A DNA stretch of 64,000 nt. It comes from Lachnospiraceae bacterium oral taxon 500. GTDB lineage: Bacteria > Bacillota > Clostridia > Lachnospirales > Vallitaleaceae. The stretch lies in assembly GCA_002999035.1 (NCBI GenBank), contig CP027241.1, positions 871,001 through 935,000 on the forward strand. The letters are read 5' to 3'. Positions 3,421-37,459 of this stretch are shown here, piece by piece. Each line of letters begins with the position of its first letter. Within the stretch, counting starts at the first letter, position 1. The notes beneath the pieces were generated by a model. The model searched no databases. It had not been told where the DNA came from and saw nothing but the letters and a program-made list of their open reading frames with translations. Both the position numbers and the translations under genes were made by a program.

Positions 3421-3524
3421 GCTCTAAAATATTGGGTTGGGGTTGGTACTCTCTAAATTATCGGGTTGGTAAAAACAGCCCGTTTTTTCTTTGAGGTTGG
3501 TGGCCTCTAAATTATCGGGTTGGT
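3421..3524. repeat. Three short direct repeats (CTCTAAATTATCGGGTTGGT)
   Basis: The 20-mer CTCTAAATTATCGGGTTGGT occurs exactly at 3451-3470 and 3505-3524, with a diverged copy at 3421-3440. The two exact copies are each followed by an A-run and AGCCC. They lie just upstream of a truncated transposase start, so they may be nested IS-end sequences left by repeated insertion or deletion. Confidence 0.6.
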
Positions 3525-3729
3525 AAAAAAAATAGCCCTTCGCATATAATGTATTTAACCACAATACTCTAATTACGAAGGGAGGAACAATATGATTCCT
3601 AATACTGATTTTATCACAACTTTTCTCAATATCAGAGATTCCGATCTGGAATATTTCTTTGTTTCTACATAAAATGGTAAAACTTACTTCCATGTTCAGC
3701 GTTTTTCTTGCTATCTCTTCATTGATCAA
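3424..3729 (-). pseudogene. Small ICE ORF at the TnpW position, disrupted
   Basis: The ATG overlaps the stop of the DnaC-like gene (ATGA), as expected for the next gene of this operon. In related Tn1549-type elements this position often holds a small TnpW-like protein. Only about the first 20-25 residues (start MINEEIARKTLNMEVSFTI) look like real coding sequence. After that the frame runs antisense through an IS remnant and the CTCTAAATTATCGGG repeats, producing the repeated peptide FYQPDNLE. I read this as a small gene whose 3' end was replaced by an IS fragment. Confidence 0.4.
3592..3672 (+). pseudogene. N-terminal remnant of an IS transposase (ISL3-like)
   Basis: A very strong ribosome binding site (GGGAGGAA) precedes ATG at 3592. 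The 26-residue reading frame MIPNTDFITTFLNIRDSDLE... stops at 3670. The start resembles ISL3-family transposases, but this is from memory and the match is short. Sequence after about 3670 belongs to the antisense small ICE gene, so only the 5' tip of the transposase gene is left. It shares a fragment with the repeats upstream. Confidence 0.4.
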
Positions 3730-5353: not shown

Positions 5354-5440
5354 CGCTTCACCTCCCTCCTTAAAAATTGGCAAAGAAAAAGACGATAGTT
5401 TTTTATCTATCGCCTTTGGCAACCATTTGTATGAATTATT

Positions 5441-21388: not shown

Positions 21389-24382
21389 CTACTGCTCGAC
21401 AAAGAACAAATATCCTTCAGCCGTGCGATCCGAACTGTCTTTCACACTCTTAATCAAATCCTTGGTCGTCATCGCCCGAAGCACCTCGCCTACTTTTAAG
21501 CTGTCCTTTTCCGTCGCTTTATTTTCCCGGAAAAAGAGAGCGGAAGCATGCACAGTTAAAACGGCATAACTGTTGCTTAAACTGAGCGGCACCCATTTTT
21601 TCTGCGCCCGCTGATACACAAACACATCCTTAATCTTAATGCCGTCGCCGTCAATCGCATAAATTGTTCCCTTAACGCCTTCCTGTAAATAGGGCTGTTC
21701 CAGCACATAATTCGCTTTGGCGCCGTCGGAAATGATATTATACACCTTGTCCGTATGCGTAACTTCCCCATAGGATAAAAACTTCGACTGATTGATAAAG
21801 CCCTCGCCCGAATAAATTCTGGTATTATGGTCCATTTCAAACTCACGTTTAATCGGTGAGTAAACCCAGTTCATCCCTTTTAAAGCAGCATTTGACTGGA
21901 GCTTAAAGCCCTGCATTTCATTAATTTTGGCAATCCGGCCGCGGAAGATTTGCAGACTGCCATTGCCCGGCTCAGCCGTTACTTCAATCAGCGCTGCCTG
22001 ATTTTCACCATTTAAAATCACTCTGGCATAATCCGGCGGCAAAAGGCTGCCAAAGCTGACAACATGATTATCCTTTAAAATAATCGTACCGTCATCGGTT
22101 TGAATCGGCGCCGTCCGGTCCTCTAAAGTCAGGCGGCTGTTATCACGTACTGTTTCAATCCTGTCTCTGGCCAGCATCGTTTCCCGGCTGTCCCTGAAAC
22201 TAAGCGTATCCAAAATCTCACCCGAATAAAACTGGGTCGTCACCGCGTAGCCGGTCATATCCTTGGAATAAAGGAACTTGCGCACATAGTCGGCCGTAAC
22301 TCGCTGGCCGTTGTAATAGTATTTGGTCTGCTCATTCTGCTGAAAGACCCGGCTGGCCTGATAATTATCCCAGCGATTATATTGCAGCTGATAGGAATGA
22401 TTCAGCGTCAGCTGTTTCTGTGCCTGATTTAAAAGGCCGATATTGCCCTTATAAATATTAGCCACCTGATTCCCCAGCTTATCAACGGCAATTTCCTTAA
22501 CCGTTTCCTTTAAAGTACCAGGACTGATTACCGCCTGATTAATCAGGAGCTTAACCGTTTGTCCGGCCTGCAGCCGCGCCAGAGAACTCCGTTCTTCGCC
22601 GTAAAAAACACCGACTAGCGGCGCAACCGTATAGGTATTCAGCGACTCATCCGGACGGCGAATCGTAATCTGCGAACCGGCATCGCCGCCATCACGGACA
22701 TCTACAATCCGGCCAAAATCCGCCACATAATTCGTACTGGCCGAAATCCGGGTAATATACTCCTCATCCTCCTCCGACAGCAGCGCATGAACAATATCGC
22801 CAACCTCTAAATCGGTAATTTTGCCGTCATAAGGGTCAAAACGGTAATGCCGGAACAATTCATCAAAATAACCGGAATTGACATTGTTTTCATAATACGG
22901 CCTTTTTTCAATGGTTAACTCGGAGGCATTATATTTTTTGGTCAAAAGCTTACTGTCCCAGGTTTCAATCACAATGTACTTAAAATCCAGCTGAATATCC
23001 TTAATAATCCCGCTGACTTCATTGGTCCGGATGATATCGCCCTGATAATAAATTTCGGTTACCAACTTATCCTTGACCGTCACCGTTACCCGATGGCTGT
23101 ACGGCAGGCTCGCCAGCGGCACAAACCGGTCATTATACTGGATTTTCAGCGCCACCTGATCAGGATTGCGCCGATAGAGACTTGGCGTCATGGTAAAATG
23201 ATAGCTGTTTTCCCCGTCCTTTAAAATGATTTGACCCTTGTCCAAATCAAAGGGCTGCAAACTCCCAGAAAAAGAATAGGGCTGATCCGGTTCCTTGGCG
23301 CTGACATATAACAGACCGCCCTTATCGTCTACCAAATACTCCACCTTATCGCCTTCTTTGAGGGCCAGCATCGTTGACAGGGTACCATAGCGCAGCACCG
23401 GTGCCGACAAGATCGTTTTTTGATTATCGCTGCTGATTTCCTCGGCGTAAATCAGCTTATCGACCTGGCCGGTTTGATTGCGAACCAGATAATTCCTTTC
23501 TTTTTTGGAAGTTTGATTGTTTAAGGTCGTATCGTCGGCAATATGCCCGACATAACCGTCTTTCATGGTAATATTTCTCAGCCGGTACAGGGTTTGCCCC
23601 ATATTACGGATAGCCTGTGCCATCTCGGCCCGGGTAATCCCCCGCTTCGGCGCAAAAGCATTGCCGGATCCTTTCATAATCCCGGCTCTGGTCACCATTT
23701 CCACATAAGGCAAATACTCGGCCTTGATATTTTGCCAGTCGCTGTAACGGAAAATCGCCTGATTTTCATACTGCGGAACCATCTCCGTCGAACCGGCTGC
23801 TGAAGCTAATTTAACCAGCCAAGCCGCTACTTCTTCCCTCGTTGCCATATCTAAACGACGAAAGTTTTCCATCGGCAGCAGTGCCGATTGATCCTCTGCC
23901 AGGGCATCATTCAGCTGTGCCTCAGTAATTGCGCCCAGTCTCCTGGCTACCGTTAAATAGCCTTTGGACCAAAAAGTTAAGTTGCTTTGCACAGTTTCAC
24001 CGGCCTCAATCCCTTCGGCCGCTTTCTTCGCATCGGCTTCTTTGCCGATTGTCCGCAAAAGAAGTGCCAGCGCTTCTTCTTTGCTGACCAGTTGGTTGGG
24101 CCGGTAATAATACCGTCCGCCCTCGGAATAGCCCTGAACAATGCCCAGCGCCCCCAGTCGGGAAACGGCTTCCTTGGCCCAGTGCCCCCCTAAGTCAGCA
24201 AAGTTTAAGTTTTGGCGAATGGTATCGCCCAGCATCAGGCCGCGGTACACTCCGCTGACCGGATCGGAAACGATCCCCTGATCCTCGGTAATTGCCGCCC
24301 GGACACCAAACGGCTGCAGCAATACTAAACACAGCAAAAATGCTGCTGCTCTGAAAATGATAGATTTTCTTCCTGACTTCAC
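21389..24382 (-). CDS. Large S-layer-homology protein (N-terminal SLH)
   Basis: A 997-residue exported protein starting with GTG at 24382 behind GGGAGGAAAAAA. A signal peptide (AAAFLLCLVLLQPFGVRAA) is followed by three SLH repeats (about 47-260; FADLGGHWAKEAVSRLGALG, then YLTVARRLGAIT, then ITRAEMAQAIRN). The remaining 700 residues are repeated beta-rich modules with alternating strands and Tyr/Asn-rich stretches, not recognised as an enzyme. It probably forms part of the wall surface layer or a scaffold. With the next gene it makes a two-gene envelope operon. Confidence 0.85.
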   Translation of the reverse strand: MKSGRKSIIFRAAAFLLCLVLLQPFGVRAAITEDQGIVSDPVSGVYRGLMLGDTIRQNLNFADLGGHWAKEAVSRLGALGIVQGYSEGGRYYYRPNQLVSKEEALALLLRTIGKEADAKKAAEGIEAGETVQSNLTFWSKGYLTVARRLGAITEAQLNDALAEDQSALLPMENFRRLDMATREEVAAWLVKLASAAGSTEMVPQYENQAIFRYSDWQNIKAEYLPYVEMVTRAGIMKGSGNAFAPKRGITRAEMAQAIRNMGQTLYRLRNITMKDGYVGHIADDTTLNNQTSKKERNYLVRNQTGQVDKLIYAEEISSDNQKTILSAPVLRYGTLSTMLALKEGDKVEYLVDDKGGLLYVSAKEPDQPYSFSGSLQPFDLDKGQIILKDGENSYHFTMTPSLYRRNPDQVALKIQYNDRFVPLASLPYSHRVTVTVKDKLVTEIYYQGDIIRTNEVSGIIKDIQLDFKYIVIETWDSKLLTKKYNASELTIEKRPYYENNVNSGYFDELFRHYRFDPYDGKITDLEVGDIVHALLSEEDEEYITRISASTNYVADFGRIVDVRDGGDAGSQITIRRPDESLNTYTVAPLVGVFYGEERSSLARLQAGQTVKLLINQAVISPGTLKETVKEIAVDKLGNQVANIYKGNIGLLNQAQKQLTLNHSYQLQYNRWDNYQASRVFQQNEQTKYYYNGQRVTADYVRKFLYSKDMTGYAVTTQFYSGEILDTLSFRDSRETMLARDRIETVRDNSRLTLEDRTAPIQTDDGTIILKDNHVVSFGSLLPPDYARVILNGENQAALIEVTAEPGNGSLQIFRGRIAKINEMQGFKLQSNAALKGMNWVYSPIKREFEMDHNTRIYSGEGFINQSKFLSYGEVTHTDKVYNIISDGAKANYVLEQPYLQEGVKGTIYAIDGDGIKIKDVFVYQRAQKKWVPLSLSNSYAVLTVHASALFFRENKATEKDSLKVGEVLRAMTTKDLIKSVKDSSDRTAEGYLFFVEQ

Positions 24383-25935: not shown

Positions 25936-26685
25936 GTGGAAAAAAAATTAGCAGGCAAAAATGCCATTATTACCGGCTGCAATCGAGGAATCGGCAGTGC
26001 GCTGGTACAGGAATTTGCCAGTCAGGGCTGCAATATTTGGGCATGCGCCCGTAAGAATAGCCCCGAGTTTGAAAGTCAATGTCAAAAATGGGCAGAACGT
26101 TATCAGGTATGGATTCAACCGGTTTATTTTGAATTAAGAGAAGAAGAAGCCATAAAAAAAGCAGTGCAGGGTATTATTCATCAGGGTTTACCGGTCGATA
26201 TTTTAATTAACAACGCCGGTGTGCCAGCTCATGGCATATTGACCATGACCTCTGTCCGGGAAATGAAAGAGGTCTACGCCGTCAATGTTTTTGCTCCGGT
26301 TATTTTAATGCAAAATCTGGCTCGGCAAATGATGAAACAAAAAAGCGGCAATATTATCAATATTTGTTCCGTTGGTGGGATTGAAGCTCAGGAAGGATAT
26401 TTAGCCTACGGCTCGAGCAAGGCAGCTCTACTGTGGATTACCCGTTCGGTCGCTAAGGAACTGGCCAAATATCAAATCCGAGTAAATGCTCTGGCGCCGG
26501 GGTTAATTGAAACCGATATGGGCAATTACAAAGCGCCGGCCGAAAGAGAAAAGGTATTGGCACGTACCAGTCTAAAGCGAATGGGAACGCCGGAGGAAAT
26601 TGCCAAAGCGGCATTATTTTTAGCTTCCGAAGATTCTTCGTATATGACGGGGCAAATTTTAACAATAGATGGAGGCAGGGTATGA
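25936..26685 (+). CDS. Short-chain dehydrogenase/reductase (FabG-like), first of two
   Basis: A GTG start follows TAGGAGA. The 249 residues show the NAD(P) motif TGCNRGIGSALVQEF, NNAGVPAHG, catalytic Ser in NICSVGG and the Tyr-Lys pair in YGSSKAALLWITR. The C-terminus LASEDSSYMTGQILTIDGG is typical of FabG-like ketoreductases. It opens a twelve-gene operon and overlaps the transketolase gene by 4 bp. It is a paralogue of the SDR at 30757: both share an unusual segment (NIWACARK / NVWTCARK, VWIQPVYFEL / VWIRPVYFDL). Its probable role is reduction or oxidation of a hydroxy-ketone in the pathway. Confidence 0.88.
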   Translation: MEKKLAGKNAIITGCNRGIGSALVQEFASQGCNIWACARKNSPEFESQCQKWAERYQVWIQPVYFELREEEAIKKAVQGIIHQGLPVDILINNAGVPAHGILTMTSVREMKEVYAVNVFAPVILMQNLARQMMKQKSGNIINICSVGGIEAQEGYLAYGSSKAALLWITRSVAKELAKYQIRVNALAPGLIETDMGNYKAPAEREKVLARTSLKRMGTPEEIAKAALFLASEDSSYMTGQILTIDGGRV

Positions 26686-27509
26686 ACTACTCACAGCAGG
26701 AAATTCAAGATTTAACGCAGATGGCCAAAAGAATGCGTCTGGCAGCGCTGGATATGACGCTCTCAACCGGTCAGGGCGGTGCGCATCTGGGCGGCGGTAT
26801 GTCCTGTATGGAAATTTTGGCAGTATTGTACGGCAAGGTTATGAAATTTGATGTCCAGAATCCGCTGAATAAGGAGCGGGATCGGTTTCTGCCCAGCAAA
26901 AACCACTGTGTGCTGGCACATCTTCCAGCACTGGCTGAAGTCGGCTATATCAGCCGGGAAGAACTTTGCGAGTTTCAGAAAAATGGCGGCCGGCTGACCA
27001 GTTATCCCAAACGACCGGAAATTGGTTTGGAATACGCCGGCGGAAGTCTGGGTATGGCACTTGCCTTAGGAATCGGAATTGCTCTCAGTGCCCGGCAGCA
27101 GCAAAAAAAGAATACCATTTATGTTCTTTTAGGCGACGGAGAATTAAATGAAGGCTCCAACTGGGAGGCCTTTATGGCGGCCGGCCATTACCGACTGAAT
27201 AATTTGGTGGCCATTATTGACCGAAATCATTTGGCTTATGACGGCAACACCGAAGAAGTGATGGGACTGGAATCTTTGCAGGCTAAACTGGAAAGCTTCC
27301 GCTGGCAGGTATCCTGCTGTGACGGGCATAAGGTGGAATCGCTTTTGACGGCATTTGCCGACAGAGCCGGACATGGGCCGCAGGTCATTCTGGCTGATAC
27401 CGTTAAGGGCAAAGGCGTATCTTTTATGGAAAACCGGCCGGAATGGCATCATCATGTACTGACGCAGGAACAGTATGAGCAAGCAAAAAAAGAGATTATG
27501 GAGTCATAA
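26682..27509 (+). CDS. Transketolase N-terminal subunit
   Basis: A 275-residue protein equal to the thiamine-diphosphate-binding half of transketolase. It contains STGQGGAHLGGGMSCMEILA, SLGMALALGIGIAL, and the TPP/Mg motif GDGELNEGSNWEAFMAAG followed by IIDRN. Split transketolases are normal in many anaerobes, but here the pair is inside an acyl-activation cluster. It may transfer a C2 ketol unit to an aldehyde made by the LuxC-like enzymes rather than serve the pentose phosphate pathway. The next gene starts 1 bp after the stop. Confidence 0.92.
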   Translation: MNYSQQEIQDLTQMAKRMRLAALDMTLSTGQGGAHLGGGMSCMEILAVLYGKVMKFDVQNPLNKERDRFLPSKNHCVLAHLPALAEVGYISREELCEFQKNGGRLTSYPKRPEIGLEYAGGSLGMALALGIGIALSARQQQKKNTIYVLLGDGELNEGSNWEAFMAAGHYRLNNLVAIIDRNHLAYDGNTEEVMGLESLQAKLESFRWQVSCCDGHKVESLLTAFADRAGHGPQVILADTVKGKGVSFMENRPEWHHHVLTQEQYEQAKKEIMES

Positions 27510-27510
27510 A

Positions 27511-28494
27511 ATGAAAATATCATCCCTTAAAATTAAATCTTGGGCAAAGCTGGGACAAAGAGGAACGGTTTTTGGGATTGTTTTGCCGGAATTAGCAAAA
27601 CAAAAGGCAAATCTGAAACTGCTGACAGCTGATGTGGCTCTGCTTTCCGGCATGGAGCGGTTTTGCAGTCAGTATCCAGAGCAATTTTTAAACGTAGGCA
27701 TTGCCGAGCAAAATATGATTGGAATTGCGGCCGGTTTGGCTTTGGAAGGCGATATCGTCTTTGCAACAACTTACGCTTCTTTTTTGGCAGTCAGATGTTT
27801 GGAGCAGGTACGGCAGCATTTGGCCTATATGAAAAATAATGTTAAATTAATCAGCTTTTCGGCCGGTATGGCAGCGGCTAAATCGGGAGTGTCGCACTGG
27901 GCAACAGAAGATATCGCCTTTATGAACGCTTTGCCAAATATGGTGGTAATGTCGCCGGCCGACAGCTTGGAAGCACTGAAAATGACAGAATGGGCAGCAG
28001 AATATGAAGGTCCGGTCTATATTCGCCTCAGCGGCGGTGTAGATTGTCCAATTGTCTATGAAAATGATTATGACTGGCAGGCCGGGAAAATCATAACCTT
28101 GGCGGAAGGCCGTGAAGTGGCGCTGATTGCAACTGGTTTAATGGTCAAAGAAGCACTGGCCGCTGAAAAAATCTTAGCAGAAAAAGGAATTTCCTGCTCT
28201 GTCTATAATCTACATACCATTAAGCCCTTAGACCGGGAAAAACTGCGTGCAGTCTTTCAAACTCATTCGCTGATTGTTTCAATTGAAGAGCATAATGTAA
28301 TCGGTGGAATCGGCAGCGCCATCGCACAATATAAGTCAGAATTAACCAATATGCCCCGGCAGGTTATGATTGGCGTAGAAGATTTTGCAATTGACGCTGG
28401 CGGACAAAAATATATTTGGTCGGAGATTGGTTTAACCGCTGAAAAAATCGCCGACAGAGTAAAAAAAGAATGGGAGAAAACCTGTGATTGCTGA
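27511..28494 (+). CDS. Transketolase C-terminal subunit
   Basis: ATG at 27511 is chosen, with GGAG upstream, just after the stop of the N subunit. The 327 residues carry the pyrimidine-binding domain with the catalytic Glu in NVGIAEQNMIGIAAGLA, then TTYASFLAVRCLEQVR, and a C-terminal transketolase domain (about 200-327, EEHNVIGGIGSAIAQ). It forms the active site with the N subunit at their interface. It overlaps the LuxE-like gene by 11 bp, so the ORFs are translated together. Confidence 0.92.
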   Translation: MKISSLKIKSWAKLGQRGTVFGIVLPELAKQKANLKLLTADVALLSGMERFCSQYPEQFLNVGIAEQNMIGIAAGLALEGDIVFATTYASFLAVRCLEQVRQHLAYMKNNVKLISFSAGMAAAKSGVSHWATEDIAFMNALPNMVVMSPADSLEALKMTEWAAEYEGPVYIRLSGGVDCPIVYENDYDWQAGKIITLAEGREVALIATGLMVKEALAAEKILAEKGISCSVYNLHTIKPLDREKLRAVFQTHSLIVSIEEHNVIGGIGSAIAQYKSELTNMPRQVMIGVEDFAIDAGGQKYIWSEIGLTAEKIADRVKKEWEKTCDC

Positions 28495-29560
28495 TTTTTT
28501 TGAATGGGCACCATATGAACTGGAAAAAAAACAAAAAAACAAAAAATTGACGGAAGAATTGATCCGTCTGACCCGCTACCATCAAGCACACTGCGAACAT
28601 TACCGTCATTTTTTGGCAGCAAGTGGTTATGTGGAGGAAAAGGTACAGTCGGTGGCAGATATTCCGTTTTTTCCGGTGCGTTTGTTTAAAGAAATGGATC
28701 TTTTAAGCATTGACCAAAACGAAGTCTTTAAAATTATGACTTCCTCCGGTACGACCGGACAAAAGGCGTCAAAAATCTTTTTAGATAAGGAAACTGCCAT
28801 GCTTCAGCAAAAGGCGATGATTCAAATCTTAGGCGATTTTTGGGGCAAGCAGCGCTTGCCAATGCTGGTTGTTGACTCTCCTGATATTGTGCGGGATCGG
28901 GCTAAGTTTTCGGCGCGAGGAGCAGCGCTGATGGGCTTTCGAATGATGACTAGGGAAATGACCTATGTTTTGAACTCGGATATGAGTTTAAACTGGCCGG
29001 CACTCCACTCTTTTCTGGAAAAATACCAGCACCAGAAATTTATTGTTTTTGGCTTCACTTTTATGGTTTGGCAGCATTTTTATAAAGCTTTGCTTGGGCA
29101 GGAGCAACAATTTGACTTTGCTAATGCTTACTTAATGACTGGCGGCGGCTGGAAAAAATTAGAGGCAGAGGCAGTTCCCCGTCAGGAGTTTAAAGAGCGC
29201 CTCCGGGCGGCCTTAAATTTTCAACATTTCTTGGATCATTACGGTATGGTTGAACAAACGGGCTGTATGAATGTGGAGTGCGCACACGGGCATTTGCACG
29301 CCAGCAATTTTTCTGATGTGATTGTCCGAAATCCCGTAGATTTTTCCGTCTGCGACATCGGTCAAAAAGGTATTTTGCAGCTGGTATCAGTTTTGCCGCA
29401 TTCCTATCCCGGCCACAGCTTACTCAGTGAGGATGAGGGTATGATTCTGGGGGAAGATGACTGCCCCTGCGGCCGCAAAGGCAAATATCTCGCCGTGCTG
29501 GGCAGGCTGAAAAATGCAGAATTAAGGGGGTGCAGTGATGTCTATGCCAGCCGTTTTTGA
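28484..29560 (+). CDS. LuxE-like acyl-protein synthetase, copy 1
   Basis: A GTG start follows GGGAG. The 358 residues belong to the LuxE/PaaK-like adenylate-forming group. The P-loop-like motif is MTSSGTTGQ (about 85-93), with LMTGGGWKK and HYGMVEQTG in the middle, then GEDDCPCGRKGKYL. Near the end, LRGCSD holds a cysteine in the place of the one acylated in Vibrio LuxE. LuxE activates a fatty acid with ATP, carries it on that Cys and hands it to LuxC. There is no luciferase here. The gene overlaps luxC-like copy 1 by 23 bp, as expected for a tight partner. Confidence 0.85.
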   Translation: MIADFFEWAPYELEKKQKNKKLTEELIRLTRYHQAHCEHYRHFLAASGYVEEKVQSVADIPFFPVRLFKEMDLLSIDQNEVFKIMTSSGTTGQKASKIFLDKETAMLQQKAMIQILGDFWGKQRLPMLVVDSPDIVRDRAKFSARGAALMGFRMMTREMTYVLNSDMSLNWPALHSFLEKYQHQKFIVFGFTFMVWQHFYKALLGQEQQFDFANAYLMTGGGWKKLEAEAVPRQEFKERLRAALNFQHFLDHYGMVEQTGCMNVECAHGHLHASNFSDVIVRNPVDFSVCDIGQKGILQLVSVLPHSYPGHSLLSEDEGMILGEDDCPCGRKGKYLAVLGRLKNAELRGCSDVYASRF

Positions 29561-30764
29561 TAAACTTCATTATTTAGTCGGCGATAGCAATTGTTTGGGC
29601 AATATGCCCCGTCAAAAAGCATTGCCGTTTTTTTCCGAGGAAGTCGTTGATTTTTTAGGTGCTCTGTCAAAAACTATTTTTGCCGATAAAAAAGCCCGCG
29701 AGTATAAAGATGTTATGGCTTATGCTTATTGGATTCGGAATGCTTCGCTGCGACAGGCGGCGCTGGTGCATCAGGATGATAAACGGCGAATAGGCCGGGG
29801 TGTGGTCTTTCATATTGCTCCCTCTAATGTGCCGGTCAACTTTGCGGTGTCAATGACTTCGGCTATGTTGGCAGGAAACGCTTCTATCATTCGAGTATCG
29901 GACAAAACGTTTGCGCAGGTTACTATCATTTGTGATGCGATAAACAAGTTGCTGGGTTCAACACACAGCCATTTAAAAGGATATATCTGTATTCTTCGTT
30001 ATGAGCATAACGAGGAAATCACGCAGGCTTTGACCAATTTTTGTGATGTTCGAGTCGTTTGGGGCGGTAATCAGACTATTCACGCAATCCGGCAGGCGGC
30101 GCTGCCGCCGCGGGCGATTGAGATGACCTTTGCCGACCGCCATTCGCTGGCAGTCATTGATGCTGACAGTTATTTGTTGGCAGATGCGAAACAAGTAGCC
30201 GAACATTTTTATACCGATACCTACTATATTGATCAAAACGCCTGCAGTTCGCCGCGTCTGGTCGCATGGCTGGGGCGGGAAACAGAAGCGGCCAGACAGC
30301 GCTTTTGGAAAACACTGGCCGAAAAAGTAAAAGATGAATATATTTTTCAGCCTATTCAGGCAATTGACAAATATACAGCTTTTGCTCGGCTGGGTATGGC
30401 GCAGGAAGGTATTACTCTGCTGGCAGAAGACAATCGGCTGTTTCGCCTGCCGGTTACCAATCTGACAGCAGATTTAATGGATTATAAAGAGGGCGGCGGC
30501 TTTTTCTTTGAGTATGTACTAAAGGATTTAGAAGAACTTTTGCCGATTATGGGCAAATCTTGTCAAACTGTGGCTTATTTAGGAAATCTGGCTGAACAAT
30601 TAGAGCAATTGGTTATCACCAACGGCGTTCGAGGTGTAGACCGGATTGTTCCAATTGGTGAAACTATGGACCTTACTTTTTTCTGGGATGGCTTTGATAT
30701 GATAAAAACAATGAGCCGAATCCTTGACCGCACAGTCGAAAAAGGGAGAAAAGCAGATGAGTAA
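29538..30764 (+). CDS. LuxC-like acyl reductase, copy 1
   Basis: ATG at 29538 follows AAGGGGGTG by 5-7 bases, a site located inside the codons of LuxE RGCSD. The 408 residues show GRGVVFHIAPSNVPVNFA (nucleotide-binding ALDH-like motif), LPPRAIEMTFADRHS and the probable active-site Cys in YYIDQNACSSPRLVAWL (about residue 235). They also contain the C-terminal GVRGVDRIVPIGETMDL. LuxC enzymes reduce an acyl group, taken over as a Cys thioester, to an aldehyde with NADPH. In this cluster it should supply the aldehyde for the next step. Confidence 0.87.
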   Translation: MSMPAVFDKLHYLVGDSNCLGNMPRQKALPFFSEEVVDFLGALSKTIFADKKAREYKDVMAYAYWIRNASLRQAALVHQDDKRRIGRGVVFHIAPSNVPVNFAVSMTSAMLAGNASIIRVSDKTFAQVTIICDAINKLLGSTHSHLKGYICILRYEHNEEITQALTNFCDVRVVWGGNQTIHAIRQAALPPRAIEMTFADRHSLAVIDADSYLLADAKQVAEHFYTDTYYIDQNACSSPRLVAWLGRETEAARQRFWKTLAEKVKDEYIFQPIQAIDKYTAFARLGMAQEGITLLAEDNRLFRLPVTNLTADLMDYKEGGGFFFEYVLKDLEELLPIMGKSCQTVAYLGNLAEQLEQLVITNGVRGVDRIVPIGETMDLTFFWDGFDMIKTMSRILDRTVEKGRKADE

Positions 30765-31491
30765 AAACGCAATTGTAACCGGCGGCAGCCGGGGAATTGG
30801 CCTAGCACTGGTTGAAAAGCTGGCTAAAAGCGGCATCAATGTTTGGACTTGCGCCAGAAAACCACAGCCAGAAATTGAAAAAGAATGGCAGCAATTAAGC
30901 CAAGCCTGCAATGTTTGGATTCGGCCGGTTTATTTTGACCTGTTAGATGACAAGCAAATAGAAGCAGCTTATTTAAAAATTCTATCCGAGAAAGAAAGCA
31001 TTGATATCCTGATTAACAATGCCGGCATCGGACATCTGGGACTGCTGGAAATGACCCGATTTGAGGATATTAAAAAGATTTATCAAATCAATGTTTTAGC
31101 GCCGATTCGGCTGTGTCAGCTGGTCTTGAAAAAAATGACCCGGCAACGTTCCGGCTATATCCTCAATATTGTGTCAACTGCCGCCGATGAGGTTTATATG
31201 GGAAATTCCATTTACGGCGCTTCTAAAGCCGCTTTGGCCCAGTTTACCAAATCACTGGCTGCTGAAGTTGCCAGCCGGGGAATCACGGTCAATGCAGTAG
31301 CGCCAGGATTGACCGATACAGAAATGAGTCCTATTTTTGAAGGCACAGACCCTACTCTGCCAATGCAAAGAAGCGCACTCGGCCGAAAACTGACACCCGC
31401 AGAAGTAGCTGATGCAGCCATCGCTTTGATGTCGCCGGAAATGAGAATGCTCAATGGTCAGGTGATTGCCGTCAACGGAGGTGCAAAATAA
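30757..31491 (+). CDS. Short-chain dehydrogenase/reductase (FabG-like), second of two
   Basis: ATG at 30757 has GGGAGAAAAGCAG before it and overlaps the end of the LuxC-like gene. The 244 residues have TGGSRGIGLALVEKL, NNAGIGHLG, catalytic Ser in NIVSTAA, Tyr-Lys in YGASKAALAQFTKSL and the ending LNGQVIAVNGG. It is a paralogue of the first SDR of the operon. Two SDRs suggest two redox steps or one reductase for each of the two LuxE/LuxC pairs. Confidence 0.88.
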   Translation: MSKNAIVTGGSRGIGLALVEKLAKSGINVWTCARKPQPEIEKEWQQLSQACNVWIRPVYFDLLDDKQIEAAYLKILSEKESIDILINNAGIGHLGLLEMTRFEDIKKIYQINVLAPIRLCQLVLKKMTRQRSGYILNIVSTAADEVYMGNSIYGASKAALAQFTKSLAAEVASRGITVNAVAPGLTDTEMSPIFEGTDPTLPMQRSALGRKLTPAEVADAAIALMSPEMRMLNGQVIAVNGGAK

Positions 31492-31492
31492 A

Positions 31493-32533
31493 ATGCCGGG
31501 AAAATTAGAAGAACGATATCGCTTTTATTTAGCCAAAAAGCAAGATATTCTCGATATTATGACATATATCGGCAAATACTGGAAACCGAATCATATTTTG
31601 GCACAAAATCGGGAGTTTTTTGAATATGAATTTGCCGCCGGAGAGGATATTCACTTTGTGTTGGCCCGCGACAGAAAAGATGAAAGTTTAGCCGGTATTC
31701 ACGGCTATTACCTTTGTTCCAAGAACAAAGCACATTGGGATATTTGGGGTTCGATGTGGAGCGCCCGCAGTGAGCCGGATGATCTCCCCTTTTTAGGCGT
31801 GGAACTGGCCCGGCAAAGGGACAAGCTGCTGAAAGAACGCTGCCAGATTGGAGTGGGCAACAATCCCAAAACTGCAATCCCCCTGCTGGAAAGAGTTTTT
31901 AAGCACCACTGCGGAAAATTGGATCATTATTATATGCTGAATGATTTAAAAGAATATACAATCGCGCAAATAAAGACAAAACCGCTCCCCTCCTCCAGCC
32001 AAACGGACGACAAAGGATATTTTTTAGAGCGCATAGAAACTCCGGCCGAACTGGCTGCAAAGTTTCCGTTTACCGATTATACCGACCAAATCCCCTATAA
32101 AGACTTATGGTACTATCAGCATCGTTTTTTTGAGCATCCCGTTTATCACTATCTGATTTACGGCTGCTTTACTCCCGAACAGAAAATGAAAGCAATTTTA
32201 GTCTTTCGCCGGCAGGAACAAAATGATTCGGCCGTGCTCCGGCTGGTAGATTATTACGGAGAGCATGAGGCTTTATCGCACTTGAACCGGGAACTGCGGG
32301 CGCTGTTAGGGCCGGAAATGGAATATATTGATTTTTATTGCTGCGGTTTTGCGCCGGAAATTCTGACAGCGGCAGGCTTTGTTTTAAAAAATGCCGAAGA
32401 CGGCAATATTATTCCCAATTATTTTGAGCCCTTTGTGCCGGAAAATATAGATATATGGTATAACAGCAGTCTGCCTAATCCCATCATCTGCAAGGCCGAT
32501 GCCGATCAGGACAGACCCAATGCCGTCAAATAA
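31493..32533 (+). CDS. GNAT-like acyltransferase-type protein, copy 1
   Basis: ATG at 31493 follows GGAGG, which is inside the last codons of the SDR. The 346 residues have an N-terminal GNAT-like half (about 1-165, DILDIMTYIGKYW, FVLARDRKDESLAGIHGYY, IGVGNNPKTAIPLLERVF). The motif CGKLDHYYMLND resembles proteins of polysaccharide-modifying loci. A second alpha/beta half follows (about 185-335). A clear acetyl-CoA loop (Q/RxxGxG/A) is not obvious. It is a distant paralogue of the protein at 35119. It may transfer an acyl group to the pathway product; this is inferred from fold and context only. Confidence 0.55.
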   Translation: MPGKLEERYRFYLAKKQDILDIMTYIGKYWKPNHILAQNREFFEYEFAAGEDIHFVLARDRKDESLAGIHGYYLCSKNKAHWDIWGSMWSARSEPDDLPFLGVELARQRDKLLKERCQIGVGNNPKTAIPLLERVFKHHCGKLDHYYMLNDLKEYTIAQIKTKPLPSSSQTDDKGYFLERIETPAELAAKFPFTDYTDQIPYKDLWYYQHRFFEHPVYHYLIYGCFTPEQKMKAILVFRRQEQNDSAVLRLVDYYGEHEALSHLNRELRALLGPEMEYIDFYCCGFAPEILTAAGFVLKNAEDGNIIPNYFEPFVPENIDIWYNSSLPNPIICKADADQDRPNAVK

Positions 32534-32545
32534 AATGAAACAGAA

Positions 32546-32580
32546 AACTCAGGCAAGTCATTCCAACTTCTTGCCTGCAC
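32546..32580. promoter_or_regulatory. Short hairpin between the two halves of the cluster
   Basis: CAGGCAAG (32550-32557) and CTTGCCTG (32570-32577) form a perfect 8-bp stem with a 12-base loop, in the only real gap (69 bp) of the operon. No T-run follows, so it is more likely a processing or attenuation site than a terminator. The left arm and flank repeat the sequence at 25786-25806. Confidence 0.55.
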
Positions 32581-32602
32581 TATACACAAAAAGGAGAGAA
32601 AA

Positions 32603-32839
32603 ATGACAAACGAAGAAAAGTATATCAATGCCTTTACAGAAGCTTTCGAATTGGAAGTTGAAGACGCCAAAAAAGCAAAATACGGGCAAACAACTAATTG
32701 GGATTCGGTCGGACATATGGAACTGATTGCCGCGCTGGAGGATGCTTTTGCGGTAATGCTGGATATGGATGATGTCATCGCCTTAAACTCTTTTGACAAA
32801 GGTAAAGAATTATTAAGAAAGTACGAAGTGGAGATATAG
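32603..32839 (+). CDS. Acyl carrier protein
   Basis: A 78-residue acidic helical protein with AGGAGAG before the ATG. The phosphopantetheine attachment serine is in TNWDSVGHMELIAALE, and the helix pattern is that of a type II ACP. It is a dedicated copy, separate from fatty-acid genes. Standing first in the second half of the operon, before the second LuxE/LuxC pair, it probably carries the acid substrate that the terminal AMP ligase loads. Confidence 0.87.
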   Translation: MTNEEKYINAFTEAFELEVEDAKKAKYGQTTNWDSVGHMELIAALEDAFAVMLDMDDVIALNSFDKGKELLRKYEVEI

Positions 32840-32850
32840 GAGAAAAGCAA

Positions 32851-33927
32851 ATGGATTACTCGGCAGTATTGGCGCAGGAGGCTTTCACCTTGGAAAAAGC
32901 GCAGAAAAGAGCGCTTTTAAACCGGCGGCTGCGGGAATTGGTGCAGTATCATTATGAGAATTGCCCGGAATACGGGCGAATTTTAGATTTTTTGGACTTT
33001 TCCCCGGAAAAAGAACTGGAATATGAGGACAGTCCCTTCATCCCGATTCGGCTATTTAAAGAACTGGCTTTAAAAAGCATACCGGAAGAACAGATTTTTA
33101 AAGTTATGACTTCATCGGGCACAACCGGACAAGCTGTATCCAAAGTTTATCTGGACGAGGAAACTTCCCGTAATCAGCAAAAAACCTTAATCAAAATTAT
33201 GGCGGATTTTCTGCCGGCGGAACGAATGCCGATGCTCATTCTGGATACAGCCAGGGTTGTTAAGGAACGAAACTTCTTTTCGGCCCGTCGCGCCGGAATT
33301 TTAGGTTTTTCCTTATTCGGCAGGGACAAGTTCTATGCTCTTGATGACGATATGCAGCTAAACATTGCACAAATTGAGGAGTTTTTGCAAAAATACCATA
33401 ACCAGCCGATTTTTGCCTTTGGCTATACCTTTATTATTTGGCAGTACTTGTATGAAGAATTAAAAAAACAAGGCCGCCGGTTAGACCTTTCTCATGTGAC
33501 TTTGGTGCATGGCGGCGGCTGGAAAAAGCTGGCAAACCGCAATATTACCGACCGCCAATTTAGAGAAGGACTGCTGGAAACCACCGGCTTAAAGCAAATT
33601 TATGAGTTTTACGGCATGGCCGAGCAAACCGGGACAATTTATTTGGCCTGTGAACATGGGCATATGCATACCAGCAGCTATTCGGATATTTTAATTCGGC
33701 GGGCAAAGGATTTTTCACTGTGCGATATCGGTGAAAAAGGAATGATTCAGTTGATTTCCCTGCTTCCTCAGTCCTATCCGGGACATAATATCCTGACAGA
33801 GGATGAAGGAATGATTCTGGGCGAGGATGATTGCCCCTGCGGCCGAAAAGGCAAATACTTTAAAATCTTGGGCCGAATTCAAAAAGCCGAAGTAAGGGGG
33901 TGCAGCGATACCTATGAACGCAAATAA
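32851..33927 (+). CDS. LuxE-like acyl-protein synthetase, copy 2
   Basis: A 358-residue paralogue of the protein at 28484, with the same layout. It has MTSSGTTGQ, VHGGGWKKL, FYGMAEQTG, LPQSYPGHNILTEDEGMILG, GEDDCPCGRKGKYF and a C-terminal VRGCSD with the presumed acyl-carrying Cys. GGAG lies before the ATG. It overlaps the second LuxC-like gene by 14 bp. Whether it takes acid directly or acyl from the ACP cannot be told from sequence. Confidence 0.85.
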   Translation: MDYSAVLAQEAFTLEKAQKRALLNRRLRELVQYHYENCPEYGRILDFLDFSPEKELEYEDSPFIPIRLFKELALKSIPEEQIFKVMTSSGTTGQAVSKVYLDEETSRNQQKTLIKIMADFLPAERMPMLILDTARVVKERNFFSARRAGILGFSLFGRDKFYALDDDMQLNIAQIEEFLQKYHNQPIFAFGYTFIIWQYLYEELKKQGRRLDLSHVTLVHGGGWKKLANRNITDRQFREGLLETTGLKQIYEFYGMAEQTGTIYLACEHGHMHTSSYSDILIRRAKDFSLCDIGEKGMIQLISLLPQSYPGHNILTEDEGMILGEDDCPCGRKGKYFKILGRIQKAEVRGCSDTYERK

Positions 33928-35116
33928 AATCAAACATTATACCGGCAATTATTTGGAACTGGGACGGCCGCTGGCAATTTTTGCACCATCGGTCTGCGAT
34001 TTTCTGCAGGAGTTGTCGCAGGTTTTGATGAAAGACCCTGAAGCCAAGGCGTTTCCGGATATTATCACCTTTGCTTTTTGGATTCGGCGGACCAATCTGC
34101 AAAAATATAAGGCTAACTATCCGGCCGAGCTGCGGGCAATAGGTCGGGGAACAGCGTTTCATATTGCGCCGTCCAATGTGCCGATTAATTTTGCTTTTTC
34201 TCTGGCATTCGGCCTTTTAGCCGGTAATGTCAATATTATCCGGGTTTCCAGCCGGGATTTCCCGCAGACAGACATTGTCTGCCGTCATATAAAACACTTG
34301 CTGGCAAGCGGTCAATATCCAAGGCTGGAAAAAAATATTATTGTCCTGTCTTATGAGCATGATTCAGAAATAACGGATTACTTTTCAGCACAGTGCGATG
34401 CCCGCATTATTTGGGGCGGCGACCGGACGATTGCTGAAATTCGCCGTTCTCCCTTGCCGCCGCGGGCAGTTGAACTGACCTTTGCCGACCGCTATTCTTT
34501 TTCCCTGATTGATGCCGGGCAGTTTTTGGCAATAGGCAATGCAGAACTATCCAAACTGGCAAATGCTTTTTATAACGATACCTATCTGATTGACCAAAAT
34601 GCCTGCTCATCGCCGCATCTCATTGCTTGGCTGACAGCAGACTTATCAGCGGACACTTTGGCAGCAGTCAAAGAACGATTTTGGCAGGCAGTAGCCGAAG
34701 CTGCTAAAAAATGGGAAATTCAGGATATTCATGCCAGTGAAAAATATCTCCTTGCCTGTAAATATGCGGCGGAGTACCCGGCGCTCAAAAAGCTGCGGCG
34801 CTATGCCAATTATGTTTATGTTATGGAATTAGCAGAAATCCGGGCACAGGTTTCAGAAATCAGAGGCAAGTTCGGTTTGTTTGCAGAAACAAATATTCAT
34901 TCTTATCACGAGCTTTTACCGATCCTTGGTAAAAACACGCAAACTATCACCTACTATGGAATTAACCCGCAAGAGTTGGCCGATTGGGTCATTACCGAGG
35001 GTCTCCTTGGCGTTGACCGGATTGTACCGTTCGGTGCTTCTTTGGAACTGGATTTGATTTGGGACGGTTATGACTGGATTGGCAGCCTCTCACGCCGGAT
35101 TACGGCAGGCAGGTAA
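33914..35116 (+). CDS. LuxC-like acyl reductase, copy 2
   Basis: The 400 residues start with ATG at 33914, with AAGGGGG 13 bases upstream in the LuxE RGCSD codons. It has GRGTAFHIAPSNVPINFA, LPPRAVELTFADRYS, the presumed catalytic Cys in YLIDQNACSSPHLIAWL and GLLGVDRIVPFGASLEL. It is a clear paralogue of the copy at 29538. Its presence with its own LuxE suggests a second substrate or a heteromeric complex. The stop lies 2 bp before the next gene. Confidence 0.87.
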   Translation: MNANKIKHYTGNYLELGRPLAIFAPSVCDFLQELSQVLMKDPEAKAFPDIITFAFWIRRTNLQKYKANYPAELRAIGRGTAFHIAPSNVPINFAFSLAFGLLAGNVNIIRVSSRDFPQTDIVCRHIKHLLASGQYPRLEKNIIVLSYEHDSEITDYFSAQCDARIIWGGDRTIAEIRRSPLPPRAVELTFADRYSFSLIDAGQFLAIGNAELSKLANAFYNDTYLIDQNACSSPHLIAWLTADLSADTLAAVKERFWQAVAEAAKKWEIQDIHASEKYLLACKYAAEYPALKKLRRYANYVYVMELAEIRAQVSEIRGKFGLFAETNIHSYHELLPILGKNTQTITYYGINPQELADWVITEGLLGVDRIVPFGASLELDLIWDGYDWIGSLSRRITAGR

Positions 35117-35118
35117 CT

Positions 35119-36018
35119 ATGGCAGCAGATATTAAAACGAGAACAGCCACGACAGCGGATACGGACGCGATTTTAGAATTTTTACGAGTAAACTTTCCCC
35201 GGCGAAAACTGTATTATGAAAACCGGCAGTTTTTTTTGAATGAATTTCAGGCGGATGATAACATGCTTAATTTTTGGCTGGCAGCTGACGAAAGCAGCGG
35301 TGAGTTGCTGGCGGTATCCAGTTATTATCCGGCCAATACTAAGGATTCGCCGGATATTATTTCCGGAATTTGGTATGCCAAAGACAGCGGACCGGTCATG
35401 CTGGGCTTTTTGCTCCGGCGAGAAATGCTGAAGCATTTAAATGCCCGTTTTTTTTGCGGAACAACCGCAGTCGAGAGTTCGTTCCGCTCGCACCGTTCCT
35501 TTGCCAAATGGATCAACCCCTTTCAGAAGTGGATATTGCGCGGGGGGGGGTACACTCAATCCTCTAAATATAAGGAATTGACCGAAATAACAGCGGCAGC
35601 CGAACTGAAAAAATGCTTAACCGAGGGGCAGATTGTTTTTGAAAACGCAGTCGAAAAAGATTTTTCTTACTTTTACCGGCGGTATTGGCAGAATCAATTT
35701 TTGGGATATCGAACTTTTTCTTTTCAAACAGACAAAGGTACCGAAAGTTTGGTTGTCTTAAAAAAAGATTCTCTTAAATCAAGCTTGATTTTGTTTGATT
35801 ATGCCGGTCGGGAAAGCCTGCTTCCGGAAATGACCGCTGCCTTCGCCGAGCAACTGGCGCGGCAGCAATGCGGTCGGCTTTCTTTCCGGCAAATTGGCTT
35901 TGATGAGACTTTTTTAGCAGCAGCCGGGTTTGAACCGGCACCGGAAAACGAAGCGGTGCTGTATGGCTTCGCCAATCAGCCAATTCGAATGACCGAAGGA
36001 GACGGTATTTTTGAATAA
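35119..36018 (+). CDS. GNAT-like protein, copy 2, with a coding poly-G tract
   Basis: A 299-residue protein with an N-terminal GNAT-like part (about 1-115, ATTADTDAILEFLRVNFP, FWLAADESSGELLAVSSYY). The C-terminal alpha/beta half (about 165-290, ESLVVLKKDSLKSSLILFDY) is in the same order as the copy at 31493. The two align poorly around 130-150. There the gene contains nine consecutive G (35542-35550) coding Gly-Gly-Gly, and the GKLDHYY motif of copy 1 is missing. Gain or loss of one G would shift the frame, so the gene may be phase-variable, or the tract may carry a sequencing error. Function as in copy 1, not established. Confidence 0.5.
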   Translation: MAADIKTRTATTADTDAILEFLRVNFPRRKLYYENRQFFLNEFQADDNMLNFWLAADESSGELLAVSSYYPANTKDSPDIISGIWYAKDSGPVMLGFLLRREMLKHLNARFFCGTTAVESSFRSHRSFAKWINPFQKWILRGGGYTQSSKYKELTEITAAAELKKCLTEGQIVFENAVEKDFSYFYRRYWQNQFLGYRTFSFQTDKGTESLVVLKKDSLKSSLILFDYAGRESLLPEMTAAFAEQLARQQCGRLSFRQIGFDETFLAAAGFEPAPENEAVLYGFANQPIRMTEGDGIFE

Positions 36019-36055
36019 AACCTGCCGCGCTTTTCCGGCAGAAAGGACAAAGACT

Positions 36056-37459
36056 ATGAATTTTTATGATTTTACGCTCCGGCCGCCAACAGAGTTGCTG
36101 TTTAAGGATGACAAAGGAATCGACTTTACCGTATCGGACTTTAAAAAATTGAATGATATGATTCGGGCAGGCATCCCTAAGCGAAGCTTGGTTTTTTTGT
36201 TTGCCCGCAATGAGCGAATCCCGGTCGGAATGTACCTGAGTCTTTTGCAGAATAAGATTGTGCCGCTCCTGCTCTCACCGGCTCTGCATCCGGATTTGCT
36301 GCGATCACTTTTGCAGATTTATCAGCCGGACTTTATTTTGGGGAAGGAAAGCCTTTTACCGGTGGAACTGAATTATTCAGTCATTCAGCGAATCGAGGAT
36401 TATATTGTTTTAAGAACCGGCTTTCGCTACCCACATCGGCTGCATGAAGACCTGGCGCTGCTGCTGACCACTTCCGGCAGTACCGGCAGCCCCAAATTAG
36501 TCCGCCAAAGCTACCGCAATATCGAATCCAATGCAGCAGCAATTGCTGATTACCTAAATCTTTCCTCGGCCGAGCGCCCGATTACTACTTTACCGATGCA
36601 CTATACCTACGGCTTATCGGTCATCAACAGCCATTTGCAGGTGGGCGCGCCCGTGCTTTTAACGGAAAAATCTATTGTTGAAAAGGAATTTTGGGATTTT
36701 TTAAGACAGGAAAAAGCAACCTCCGTCGCCGGAGTGCCGTATACCTATACCATGCTGGATCGGCTTCGCTTTTTTAATATGGATTTACCGGATTTAAAAA
36801 TGATGACGCAGGCCGGCGGCAAGCTGTCAGAGGAATTACAGCGGAAGTTCACCGAATATGCGGCGCAGACCGGCCGAAAGTTTGTGGTGATGTACGGTCA
36901 AACCGAGGCAACGGCTCGAATGGCCTACCTGCCGCCGGAAAAAGCGCTGGCTAAAATCGGCTGTATGGGGATTGCCATTCCGGGCGGGCGATTTGAACTG
37001 ATTGATGAAGAAGAAACTGTAATTGAACAGCCGGAAACAGCCGGTGAATTGATTTATTACGGCCCCAATGTAACCTTGGGCTATGCCGAACAGGCAGAAG
37101 ACTTAAGCCGGGGCGATGAAAGAAAAGGACGACTGGCCACCGGCGATATGGCTGTTCGGGATACTGACAGCTTTTACCGGATTGTCGGCCGAAAAAAACG
37201 TTTTCTTAAAATTTTCGGCAATCGAGTTAATTTGGATGAAATCGAAGCCAAATGCGCTGCCAAATTTGTCGGCCATGAATTTGCCTGTATCGGCCGTGAT
37301 GATGAAATGACCATTTGCCATACCGGCGAGCTTCCCGCTGAGAAGATTCAAGGCTTTTTACAGGAGCTGACCGGGCTGTATAAAGGCGCTTTTGTCTGCC
37401 GGCCAATTAATGAAATCCCCAAAAACGAAGCCGGCAAAATTTTATACGCTAAATTATAA
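36056..37459 (+). CDS. AMP-forming acyl ligase
   Basis: ATG at 36056 follows AAAGGACAAAGACT; the frame runs further upstream. The 467 residues show the adenylate-forming enzyme motifs: TTSGSTGSPKLVRQSYRNIE, YGQTEATARMAYLPP, ATGDMAVRD, GRKKRFLKIFGNRVNLDEIE and the C-terminal catalytic Lys in NEAGKILYAKL. Such ligases make acyl-AMP and pass the acyl to CoA or a phosphopantetheine arm. As the last gene of the operon that holds an ACP, it is the likely loader of that ACP. The acid specificity is not readable. Confidence 0.85.
   Translation: MNFYDFTLRPPTELLFKDDKGIDFTVSDFKKLNDMIRAGIPKRSLVFLFARNERIPVGMYLSLLQNKIVPLLLSPALHPDLLRSLLQIYQPDFILGKESLLPVELNYSVIQRIEDYIVLRTGFRYPHRLHEDLALLLTTSGSTGSPKLVRQSYRNIESNAAAIADYLNLSSAERPITTLPMHYTYGLSVINSHLQVGAPVLLTEKSIVEKEFWDFLRQEKATSVAGVPYTYTMLDRLRFFNMDLPDLKMMTQAGGKLSEELQRKFTEYAAQTGRKFVVMYGQTEATARMAYLPPEKALAKIGCMGIAIPGGRFELIDEEETVIEQPETAGELIYYGPNVTLGYAEQAEDLSRGDERKGRLATGDMAVRDTDSFYRIVGRKKRFLKIFGNRVNLDEIEAKCAAKFVGHEFACIGRDDEMTICHTGELPAEKIQGFLQELTGLYKGAFVCRPINEIPKNEAGKILYAKL

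Follow-up and report, generated by a model that had tools for sequence, protein, structure and literature searches.

A run of twelve genes with an operon-like structure is found at positions 25936-37459 of the stretch of DNA analysed here (64,000 nucleotides from Lachnospiraceae bacterium oral taxon 500, hereafter the window, corresponding to bases 871001-935000 of a single contig of 3.2 Mb). The operon encodes two LuxE and two LuxC proteins together with a split transketolase, short-chain dehydrogenases (SDR), an acyl carrier protein (ACP), an AMP (adenosine monophosphate) ligase and predicted acyltransferases. It quite likely supplies a surface glycan. The full explanation, namely that it provides an unusual residue for such a glycan, in all likelihood the one on the flagellin of this species, by way of a proposed route from an acid through an aldehyde to a ketol, is evenly balanced in our judgement. 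Two results are new: the LuxE-linked split transketolases (40 of 41, with one further sequence) form one clade in which two of the four residues that we take to bind phosphate are replaced, and transketolase and an IlvB-type thiamine enzyme are mutually exclusive in LuxE clusters. The combination of LuxE, LuxC and transketolase is already in print as a kind.

Composition of the operon

According to the listing of open reading frames (ORFs), all twelve ORFs are located on the + strand with joints that overlap or span a few bases, as had been described in an earlier interpretation made from the letters alone (the sequence-only reading). The sole gap of more than 11 bp, a gap of 69 bp, is found 5' of the ACP gene. 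The Pfam assignments agree with the sequence-only reading on the two SDRs, the split transketolase, the two LuxE and two LuxC proteins and the AMP ligase, and its two GNAT-like proteins are recovered as predicted tandem-GNAT folds. Its ACP falls below the Pfam cut-off but has the support of a motif and of homologues. The genes are as follows (TPP, thiamine diphosphate).

25936-26685, + strand: SDR1, short-chain dehydrogenase, FabG/glucose-1-dehydrogenase-like (Pfam adh_short_C2, 6.9e-56; YGSSK motif)
26682-27509, + strand: tkN, N-terminal half of the split transketolase with the TPP-binding domain (Pfam Transketolase_N, 1.5e-31)
27475-28494, + strand: tkC, C-terminal half of the split transketolase (Pfam Transket_pyr, 5.9e-30; Transketolase_C, 6.3e-26)
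28484-29560, + strand: LuxE1, acyl-protein synthetase of the transketolase-linked clade (Pfam LuxE, 1.4e-53; RGCSD cysteine)
29535-30764, + strand: LuxC1, acyl-protein/acyl-CoA reductase (Pfam LuxC, 1.7e-28; QNACSS cysteine)
30724-31491, + strand: SDR2, short-chain dehydrogenase (Pfam adh_short, 6.7e-52; YGASK); the real start may be an internal ATG
31466-32533, + strand: GNAT-like 1, predicted tandem GNAT acyltransferase (fold model; no Pfam match)
32603-32839, + strand: acyl carrier protein, 78 aa (Pfam PP-binding, 0.0016, below the Pfam cut-off; DSVGH motif)
32851-33927, + strand: LuxE2, acyl-protein synthetase of the type linked to ACP and AMP ligase (Pfam LuxE, 3.6e-47)
33914-35116, + strand: LuxC2, acyl-protein/acyl-CoA reductase (Pfam LuxC, 8e-29; QNACSS)
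35119-36018, + strand: GNAT-like 2, predicted tandem GNAT acyltransferase (fold model; no Pfam match)
36011-37459, + strand: AMP ligase, likely an acyl-ACP synthetase (Pfam AMP-binding, 3.9e-38; TSGSTGSPK motif)

The catalytic motifs are intact, namely YxxxK in both SDRs, the cysteine in each LuxE and LuxC, TSGSTGSPK in the AMP ligase and the GDG of TPP binding. The DSV motif of the ACP resembles an attachment site, and the protein shows 44-54% identity to ACPs of related clusters, with 54% to the ACP of locus L009, which adjoins an AMP ligase. The AMP ligase would favour ACP over coenzyme A (CoA). As the sequence-only reading had stated, Pfam finds no luxAB, ketosynthase (KS) or glycosyltransferase among the 12 genes, the search for luxAB being limited to these genes and not extended to the rest of the genome. 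All five gene types of the module known from glycan islands (LuxE, LuxC, ACP, AMP ligase, SDR) are present in one operon-like run. The window operon is a variant of this module with two LuxE/LuxC pairs, one of which travels with the transketolase, and a pair of predicted tandem-GNAT proteins; no island adjoins it.

An altered phosphate site in LuxE-linked transketolases

The two halves of the transketolase have their best PDB matches in the split transketolase of Carboxydothermus hydrogenoformans (tkN to 6yak, 5e-59; tkC to 6yaj, 5.1e-64), with which they share the two-chain split. Unlike this enzyme, the window copy is linked to LuxE and lacks the His and the Arg found at the aligned places of 6yaj. 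In a tree of 75 rows (quick method, SH-aLRT only; 10 of the 29 phylum rows and 3 of the 7 DXS-like rows included, L106 removed as a duplicate), 40 of the 41 LuxE-linked sequences form a single clade together with L139 (SH-aLRT 98); the tkC of the window is a member. L139 was obtained by a transketolase-first search and is accompanied by an SDR, FliS (Pfam 2.8e-32) and Maf in genome G003.

The alignment was read against E. coli TktA, whose residues R358, S385, H461 and R520 we take to be phosphate-binding. The catalytic Glu (TktA E411) is E in all 41 LuxE-linked tkC. A His in the H461 segment occurs in 0 of 41 LuxE-linked sequences vs 12 of the 28 family controls (10 when counted by column) and 28 of the 29 phylum hits; an Arg or Lys in the R520 segment occurs in 5 of 41 vs 28 of 28 and 28 of 29, respectively. 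The family controls represent 27 distinct genes, the window genome's own split transketolase being counted twice (L106, L134), and 7 of the 28 are rows of 621-632 aa that are DXS-like in appearance; the phylum hits are 30 loci minus the window's own. For R520 an R or K at most 4 residues away is counted, which is less dependent on the alignment than a count by column. The exact R520 column was rejected as a marker: in a first alignment it held G in 38 of 41 LuxE-linked sequences and R/K in 28 of 28 controls, and with rows added it was shifted by a one-residue insertion and held mixed residues, R/K being found in 5 of 41. Four of the five LuxE-linked rows with R/K in the segment have it inside this insertion, and the fifth, L031, resembles an ordinary transketolase there. 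In the window genome's own split transketolase the His sits elsewhere within the H461 segment, and His461 alone is not a clean marker inside the transketolase family.

The tkC of the window has both the His461 and the Arg520 equivalents replaced (RLSGG, no His), with R at position 358 and L at 385. The same loss of both equivalents is seen in the transketolase of Rhizobium anhuiense, which was reached via LuxE1 and not via LuxE2. The LuxE-linked transketolases probably hold phosphate-ended substrates in an unusual way or not at all. Because two of the four phosphate-binding residues are lost in this clade, a reaction with an unphosphorylated aldehyde becomes likelier. As a separate observation, tkN has a Tyr at the place of TktA His100; among 40 LuxE-linked tkN, a Tyr is present in 3 (including the window) and a His in 34.

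Co-occurrence in LuxE-selected loci

A scan of named genomes with a LuxE alignment yields at least 563 relatives, of which the best 80 loci were used, chosen by LuxE alone. By NCBI names these are from Bacillota (61), Candidatus Melainabacteria (5), Bacteroidota (4), Pseudomonadota (4), Synergistota (2) and three other phyla (1 each), with one unplaced. By marker comparison an AMP ligase is present in 77 loci, LuxC in 72, ACP in 63, SDR in 53 and both transketolase halves in 33. The co-occurrence of LuxE and split transketolase, for which the sequence-only reading had proposed a search of genomes, is found well beyond the window; the rough expectation of a transketolase pair by chance in 21 kb, inferred from about two copies per 2.5 Mb, is approximately 1-2%. 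Genes were picked greedily from the ORFs, which leaves tkN only in L057 and tkC only in L072, and misses the LuxE ORF itself in some loci (e.g. L043, L046, L071). An SDR is located immediately 5' of tkN in 27 of 39 cases, and the 3' neighbour of tkC, again among 39, is an ACP in 16, an AMP ligase in 5 and LuxE1 in 3.

In 14 of the 80 loci the place of the transketolase is taken by an IlvB-type TPP enzyme, in 9 of them within a run FabZ-IlvB-NeuB. Transketolase (33 loci) and the IlvB-type enzyme (14 loci) are never found together (0 of 80; hypergeometric P 2e-4, which is not strict as the loci are related). The well-known members of the thiamine diphosphate enzymes join a two-carbon unit to a carbonyl. 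The mutual exclusion of two such enzymes is the strongest hint that the aldehyde made by LuxE and LuxC is the acceptor of the transketolase, an assignment that we hold to be a serious possibility just short of even chances. The Pfam members of L020 are a TPP_enzyme, a FabA-like protein, NeuB and KAS III. Sister clusters in L020 (3174-12236), L095 (2392-12227) and L089 (4249-13297) have FabZ-like proteins, an IlvB-type TPP enzyme and a NeuB-type synthase beside the AMP ligase, LuxE and LuxC; a KAS III-like enzyme is also present in the clusters of L020 and L095.

Glycan markers are found in 58 of the 80 loci, or in 41 of 52 when only loci of 19 kb or more are taken; these counts are uncorrected for a base rate, and the markers also pick up general sugar genes such as relatives of DegT or RmlB. 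Related sets also occur on plasmids. The plasmid of Deinococcus sp. NW-56 has ACP-SDR-AMP ligase-LuxE-LuxC downstream of glycosyltransferases, and that of Ponticoccus alexandrii has ACP-SDR-AMP ligase-LuxE with LuxC close by. Plasmid pRA_T24_2 of Rhizobium anhuiense (L171, 3194-15377) has the order tkN-tkC-acyltransferase-small ORF-AMP ligase-glycosyltransferase-DegT-LuxE-LuxC-SDR-GMC oxidoreductase-FabZ-methyltransferase, the small ORF being in the 78-aa range and at the place expected for an ACP.

Two LuxE/LuxC pairs and two tandem-GNAT proteins

The cysteines of LuxC and LuxE in the solved complex 7xc6, which we take to be the acyl-relay residues, both line up with cysteines of the window proteins. 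The conversion of an acid into an aldehyde is plausible because of this alignment. The two LuxE proteins belong to different groups: LuxE1 falls in a clade of six (SH-aLRT 100), whereas LuxE2 groups with the LuxE of L012 (SH-aLRT 99). A LuxE of the LuxE1 clade is located directly 3' of tkC in the window and in L035, L049 and L067. All six loci of this clade carry a second LuxE of the other clade, a count biased by the confirmation and ranking of the loci by their likeness to LuxE2; a LuxE1-first sample in another order returned 0 of 20 genomes and is uninformative. The two pairs fit two activation and reduction steps, one of which would precede the transketolase and the other be tied to it.

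GNAT-like 1 and GNAT-like 2 have no Pfam match and were modelled with AlphaFold from seven-row alignments. The model of GNAT-like 1 (pLDDT 71.9, pTM 0.75) matches Eis2 with Z 13.1 over 278 aligned residues (root-mean-square deviation 4.4), and that of GNAT-like 2 (pLDDT 77.9, pTM 0.77) matches N-myristoyltransferase and tandem-GNAT structures (Foldseek E 4.7e-11). Both are thus predicted to have a tandem-GNAT fold, although for GNAT-like 1 the structural comparison leaves room for other folds. Relatives of GNAT-like 1 are located directly 3' of LuxC in L012 and L089 and a few genes from LuxE in L022, L099 and L011. We also note a tandem-GNAT family with the C-terminal motif DQDRPN that in L022, L089 and L099 is next to, or not far from, a gene for a polysaccharide deacetylase, a neighbourhood in which an exchange of N-acyl groups on an amino sugar is possible.

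Relatives joined to flagellin islands

The distribution of LuxC1 is patchy. Among the 22 genomes of the family, 2 have relatives at E 1e-15, and among the 299 of the phylum, 4 do, the window's own genome being included in both counts, and LuxC1 and LuxC2 are the only LuxC-family matches in that genome at E 0.001. The only other genome of the same genus with a LuxC match is G318; the third, G319 (89% complete), has none. In G318 the gene order is luxE-luxC-GNAT-like-tkN-tkC-FabA-like hotdog-SDR-tkN-tkC-radical SAM-ACP-metallo-beta-lactamase-fold hydrolase-AMP ligase. Directly after the AMP ligase follow genes for an O-antigen-ligase-like protein, a sugar transferase, an epimerase, Maf, a dehydratase, DegT, a nucleotidyltransferase, NeuB, a NeuC-type protein, fliD and the start of the flagellin gene (fliC). 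Pfam identifies the ligase-like protein, transferase, Maf, dehydratase, NeuB, epimerase and FliD as well as the hotdog, radical SAM and metallo-beta-lactamase families. The contig ends inside the flagellin gene, whose start is 91% identical to the flagellin of the window genome over 82 residues.

The window genome has a matching island at 1.194-1.210 Mb, between flgK/flgL-type and fliD/fliC genes (Pfam). The identity to G318 is 61% for the ligase-like protein, 75% for the sugar transferase, 44% for Maf and 56% for the NeuC-type protein, and no lux or transketolase genes are present in this island. The window operon looks like the unlinked counterpart of the part that G318 keeps joined to its flagellin island. 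A second flagellar connection is seen in G003, where an altered split transketolase and its SDR are located two genes from fliS and near Maf (contig C10), and an ACP-AMP ligase-LuxE-LuxC run is found beside pse-type genes (contig C6).

Comparison with known systems

The closest described set is that of Dickeya zeae, in which, according to PMC7575072 and PMC4522980, LuxC, LuxE, an AMP ligase, two transketolase genes, two FabG-like SDRs and an ACP are found together between fliA and fliC. PMC7575072 ties the set to flagellin glycosylation, with a function that is proposed only, whereas the earlier PMC4522980 judged the insert unlikely to be associated with flagellar biogenesis. Compared by description rather than by sequence, the types of LuxC, LuxE, AMP ligase, transketolase, SDR and ACP are those of the window; the Dickeya set differs in having one LuxE/LuxC pair and a glycosyltransferase, and no GNAT pair in the gene string given. 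As to a described pathway with the same gene set, which the sequence-only reading regarded as decisive against it, the set itself thus exists, but no pathway has been worked out for it.

Flagellin-glycosylation islands of Aeromonas group II and of enterobacteria contain LuxE, LuxC, ACP, SDR and an AMP-dependent synthetase/CoA ligase, for which PMC7874193 and PMC4875605 suggest a liposugar as a part of the glycan. These five gene types are shared with the window. Transketolase, present in the window, is unmentioned in the main texts of both papers, and the Aeromonas set is described among pse genes and glycosyltransferases, whereas the window copy is not so placed. In Shewanella oneidensis, the operon sfmABCDE encodes a NeuB-like protein (SfmA), a TPP enzyme annotated ilvB (SfmB) and a FabG-like SDR (SfmC) and is required for normal flagellin modification; the flagellin carries a moiety of 236 Da, predicted to be C9H16O7, on nonulosonic acid (PMC3765264). 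A TPP-dependent enzyme and a FabG-like SDR are common to this operon and the window, but its five genes are described without LuxE, LuxC, ACP or AMP ligase. The aldehyde supply of luciferase shares both protein families and both aligned cysteines with the window, which differs in having ACP, transketolase, SDR and GNAT genes and no luxA, luxB or luxD among its 12 genes. The literature searched, with preprints and most subscription journals outside the search, contains no measured product or enzyme assay for the LuxE/LuxC/transketolase set. The statement of the sequence-only reading that this is not a standard polysaccharide pathway is probably wrong, as homologues of the cluster are found within flagellin-glycosylation islands and among other groups of glycan genes.

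Surroundings of the operon

On the 5' side of the operon the opposite strand encodes a HAD hydrolase, a DUF1934 protein and two SLH-domain proteins (19877-21376 and 21389-24382), and on the 3' side a Fur-family regulator follows on the + strand. Among the 40 window proteins scanned with Pfam, the nearest polysaccharide-type gene encodes a Polysacc_synt/MatE-family protein (42997-44595, - strand), 5.5 kb downstream. Further away, the region 2306-5422 contains RepA_N (4574-5422) and IstB/DnaA-like (3726-4577) genes at a GC content of 30-37%, which rises to approximately 49% near 6 kb; it looks like an integrated plasmid-type element. A gene at 8523-9440 belongs to the MbnB/TglH/ChrH family, enzymes modifying precursors of ribosomally synthesized and post-translationally modified peptides (Pfam E 1.1e-13).

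Proposed route and alternative explanations

In the proposed route the AMP ligase, to judge from its family, would load a carboxylic acid onto the ACP. LuxE2 and LuxC2 would relay the acyl group via their two cysteines and reduce it, giving an aldehyde. The split transketolase, whose substrates would lack the phosphate normally found at their end, would join this aldehyde to a two-carbon ketol unit. The SDRs would reduce the ketol product. LuxE1 and LuxC1, travelling with the transketolase, may act, again by activation and reduction, on a further acid or on what a second round has produced, and the proteins with the predicted tandem-GNAT fold may move acyl groups to an amino sugar. The chemistry from acid through aldehyde to C2 ketol had been put forward in the sequence-only reading and is plausible in view of the relay cysteines and the altered transketolase site, but the order of steps is conjectural and the 'fatty' nature of the acid is unsupported.

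Several findings weigh against the proposed supply of a flagellin glycan by this route. In the Pfam scan of 40 window proteins, none is recognised as flagellar, as Maf, as a nonulosonic-acid enzyme or as a glycosyltransferase, and the flagellin-glycosylation island of the genome is approximately 285 kb from the operon. As a locus, the window operon is not classed as a flagellin-glycosylation island. A flagellar sigma-D promoter tying the operon to flagella was considered and dropped: with the consensus that we take to be that of sigma-D, none is found upstream of the operon, and neither of the two exact matches elsewhere in the window (0.86 expected) is near it. Across the 80 loci, flagellar genes are recognised in 2 and Maf in 2, with few markers used; flagellin is therefore not the general target. 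The frequency of the glycan markers is also uncorrected for a base rate. In 33 of the 80 loci, two of which have a single transketolase half, neither type of thiamine enzyme accompanies LuxE and LuxC in complete form within the stretch; LuxE and LuxC therefore need no neighbouring transketolase. Finally, the phosphate clamp is altered but not entirely lost: the window copy is one of the 23 of 41 LuxE-linked sequences that retain R358, vs 13 of 28 family controls, and S385 is kept in 13 of 41 vs 17 of 28, neither being a clear contrast. Loss of residues, as read from an alignment, does not by itself identify a substrate.

Some of these points suit a parallel supply, in which ACP, AMP ligase, LuxE and LuxC give an acyl or aldehyde decoration attached by the GNATs, while transketolase and SDR give a separate rare ketose or polyol, both destined for the same glycan and never joined. 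Such an arrangement is consistent with the 33 loci without a complete TPP enzyme and with the Aeromonas group II islands, where ACP-SDR-AMP synthetase-LuxE-LuxC are reported with transketolase unmentioned in the main text. SDR-tkN-tkC can also sit apart from LuxE, as on the two contigs of G003, and the GNAT relatives near polysaccharide-deacetylase genes suit a deacylation followed by re-acylation. The altered phosphate site is nevertheless a trait of the LuxE-linked clade, which is odd for a maker of ordinary sugar phosphates, and the position of the separate-clade LuxE directly 3' of tkC in four loci also speaks against it. We consider the parallel supply unlikely.

A secreted small molecule, e.g. 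a signal of the alpha-hydroxyketone type or a natural product resembling a lipid, would make the glycan neighbours elsewhere incidental. The window copy stands alone without glycosyltransferases, and the Rhizobium anhuiense set is flanked, within 21 kb, by genes for a siderophore receptor and an amino-acid transporter. That same set, however, also holds a glycosyltransferase, a DegT aminotransferase and an acyl-ACP sugar acyltransferase; with the glycan markers in most loci and the G318 set joined to a flagellin island, this explanation is quite improbable.

No better placed is an S-layer or another surface glycan, instead of flagellin, as the target. The two SLH-domain proteins just upstream on the other strand and the Polysacc_synt/MatE-family protein downstream speak for it, as does the rarity of flagellar genes in the related loci. 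Against it, the cases of G318 and G003 are flagellar, and the 40 window proteins scanned include no glycosyltransferase recognised by Pfam.

Luminescence or a plain fatty-acid pathway was considered and rejected, as the 12 genes include no luxAB and such clusters are mostly found in the company of glycan genes (58 of 80).

Implications

Reports of LuxE and LuxC in flagellin-glycosylation islands go back to 2016 or earlier, with 'liposugar' as the sole suggestion for the product. Their combination with a dedicated clade of altered-site transketolases leads to a concrete and testable reaction. On a broader and rather doubtful generalization, several phyla might build carbohydrate-like glycan residues from acids rather than from sugar phosphates: a carrier-bound acid would be converted by LuxE and LuxC into an aldehyde and extended to a ketol by the split transketolases with the altered clamp, IlvB-type and NeuB-type enzymes would fill the same slot in sister clusters, and the double LuxE/LuxC set would allow two rounds of activation and reduction on one chain. 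Speculatively, the reaction might account for glycan parts of undefined structure, such as the 102 Da part included in the flagellin glycan of Aeromonas piscicola AH-3. If true, it would be an added way to form C-C bonds between acyl and ketol units, of use to enzymologists and glycobiologists.

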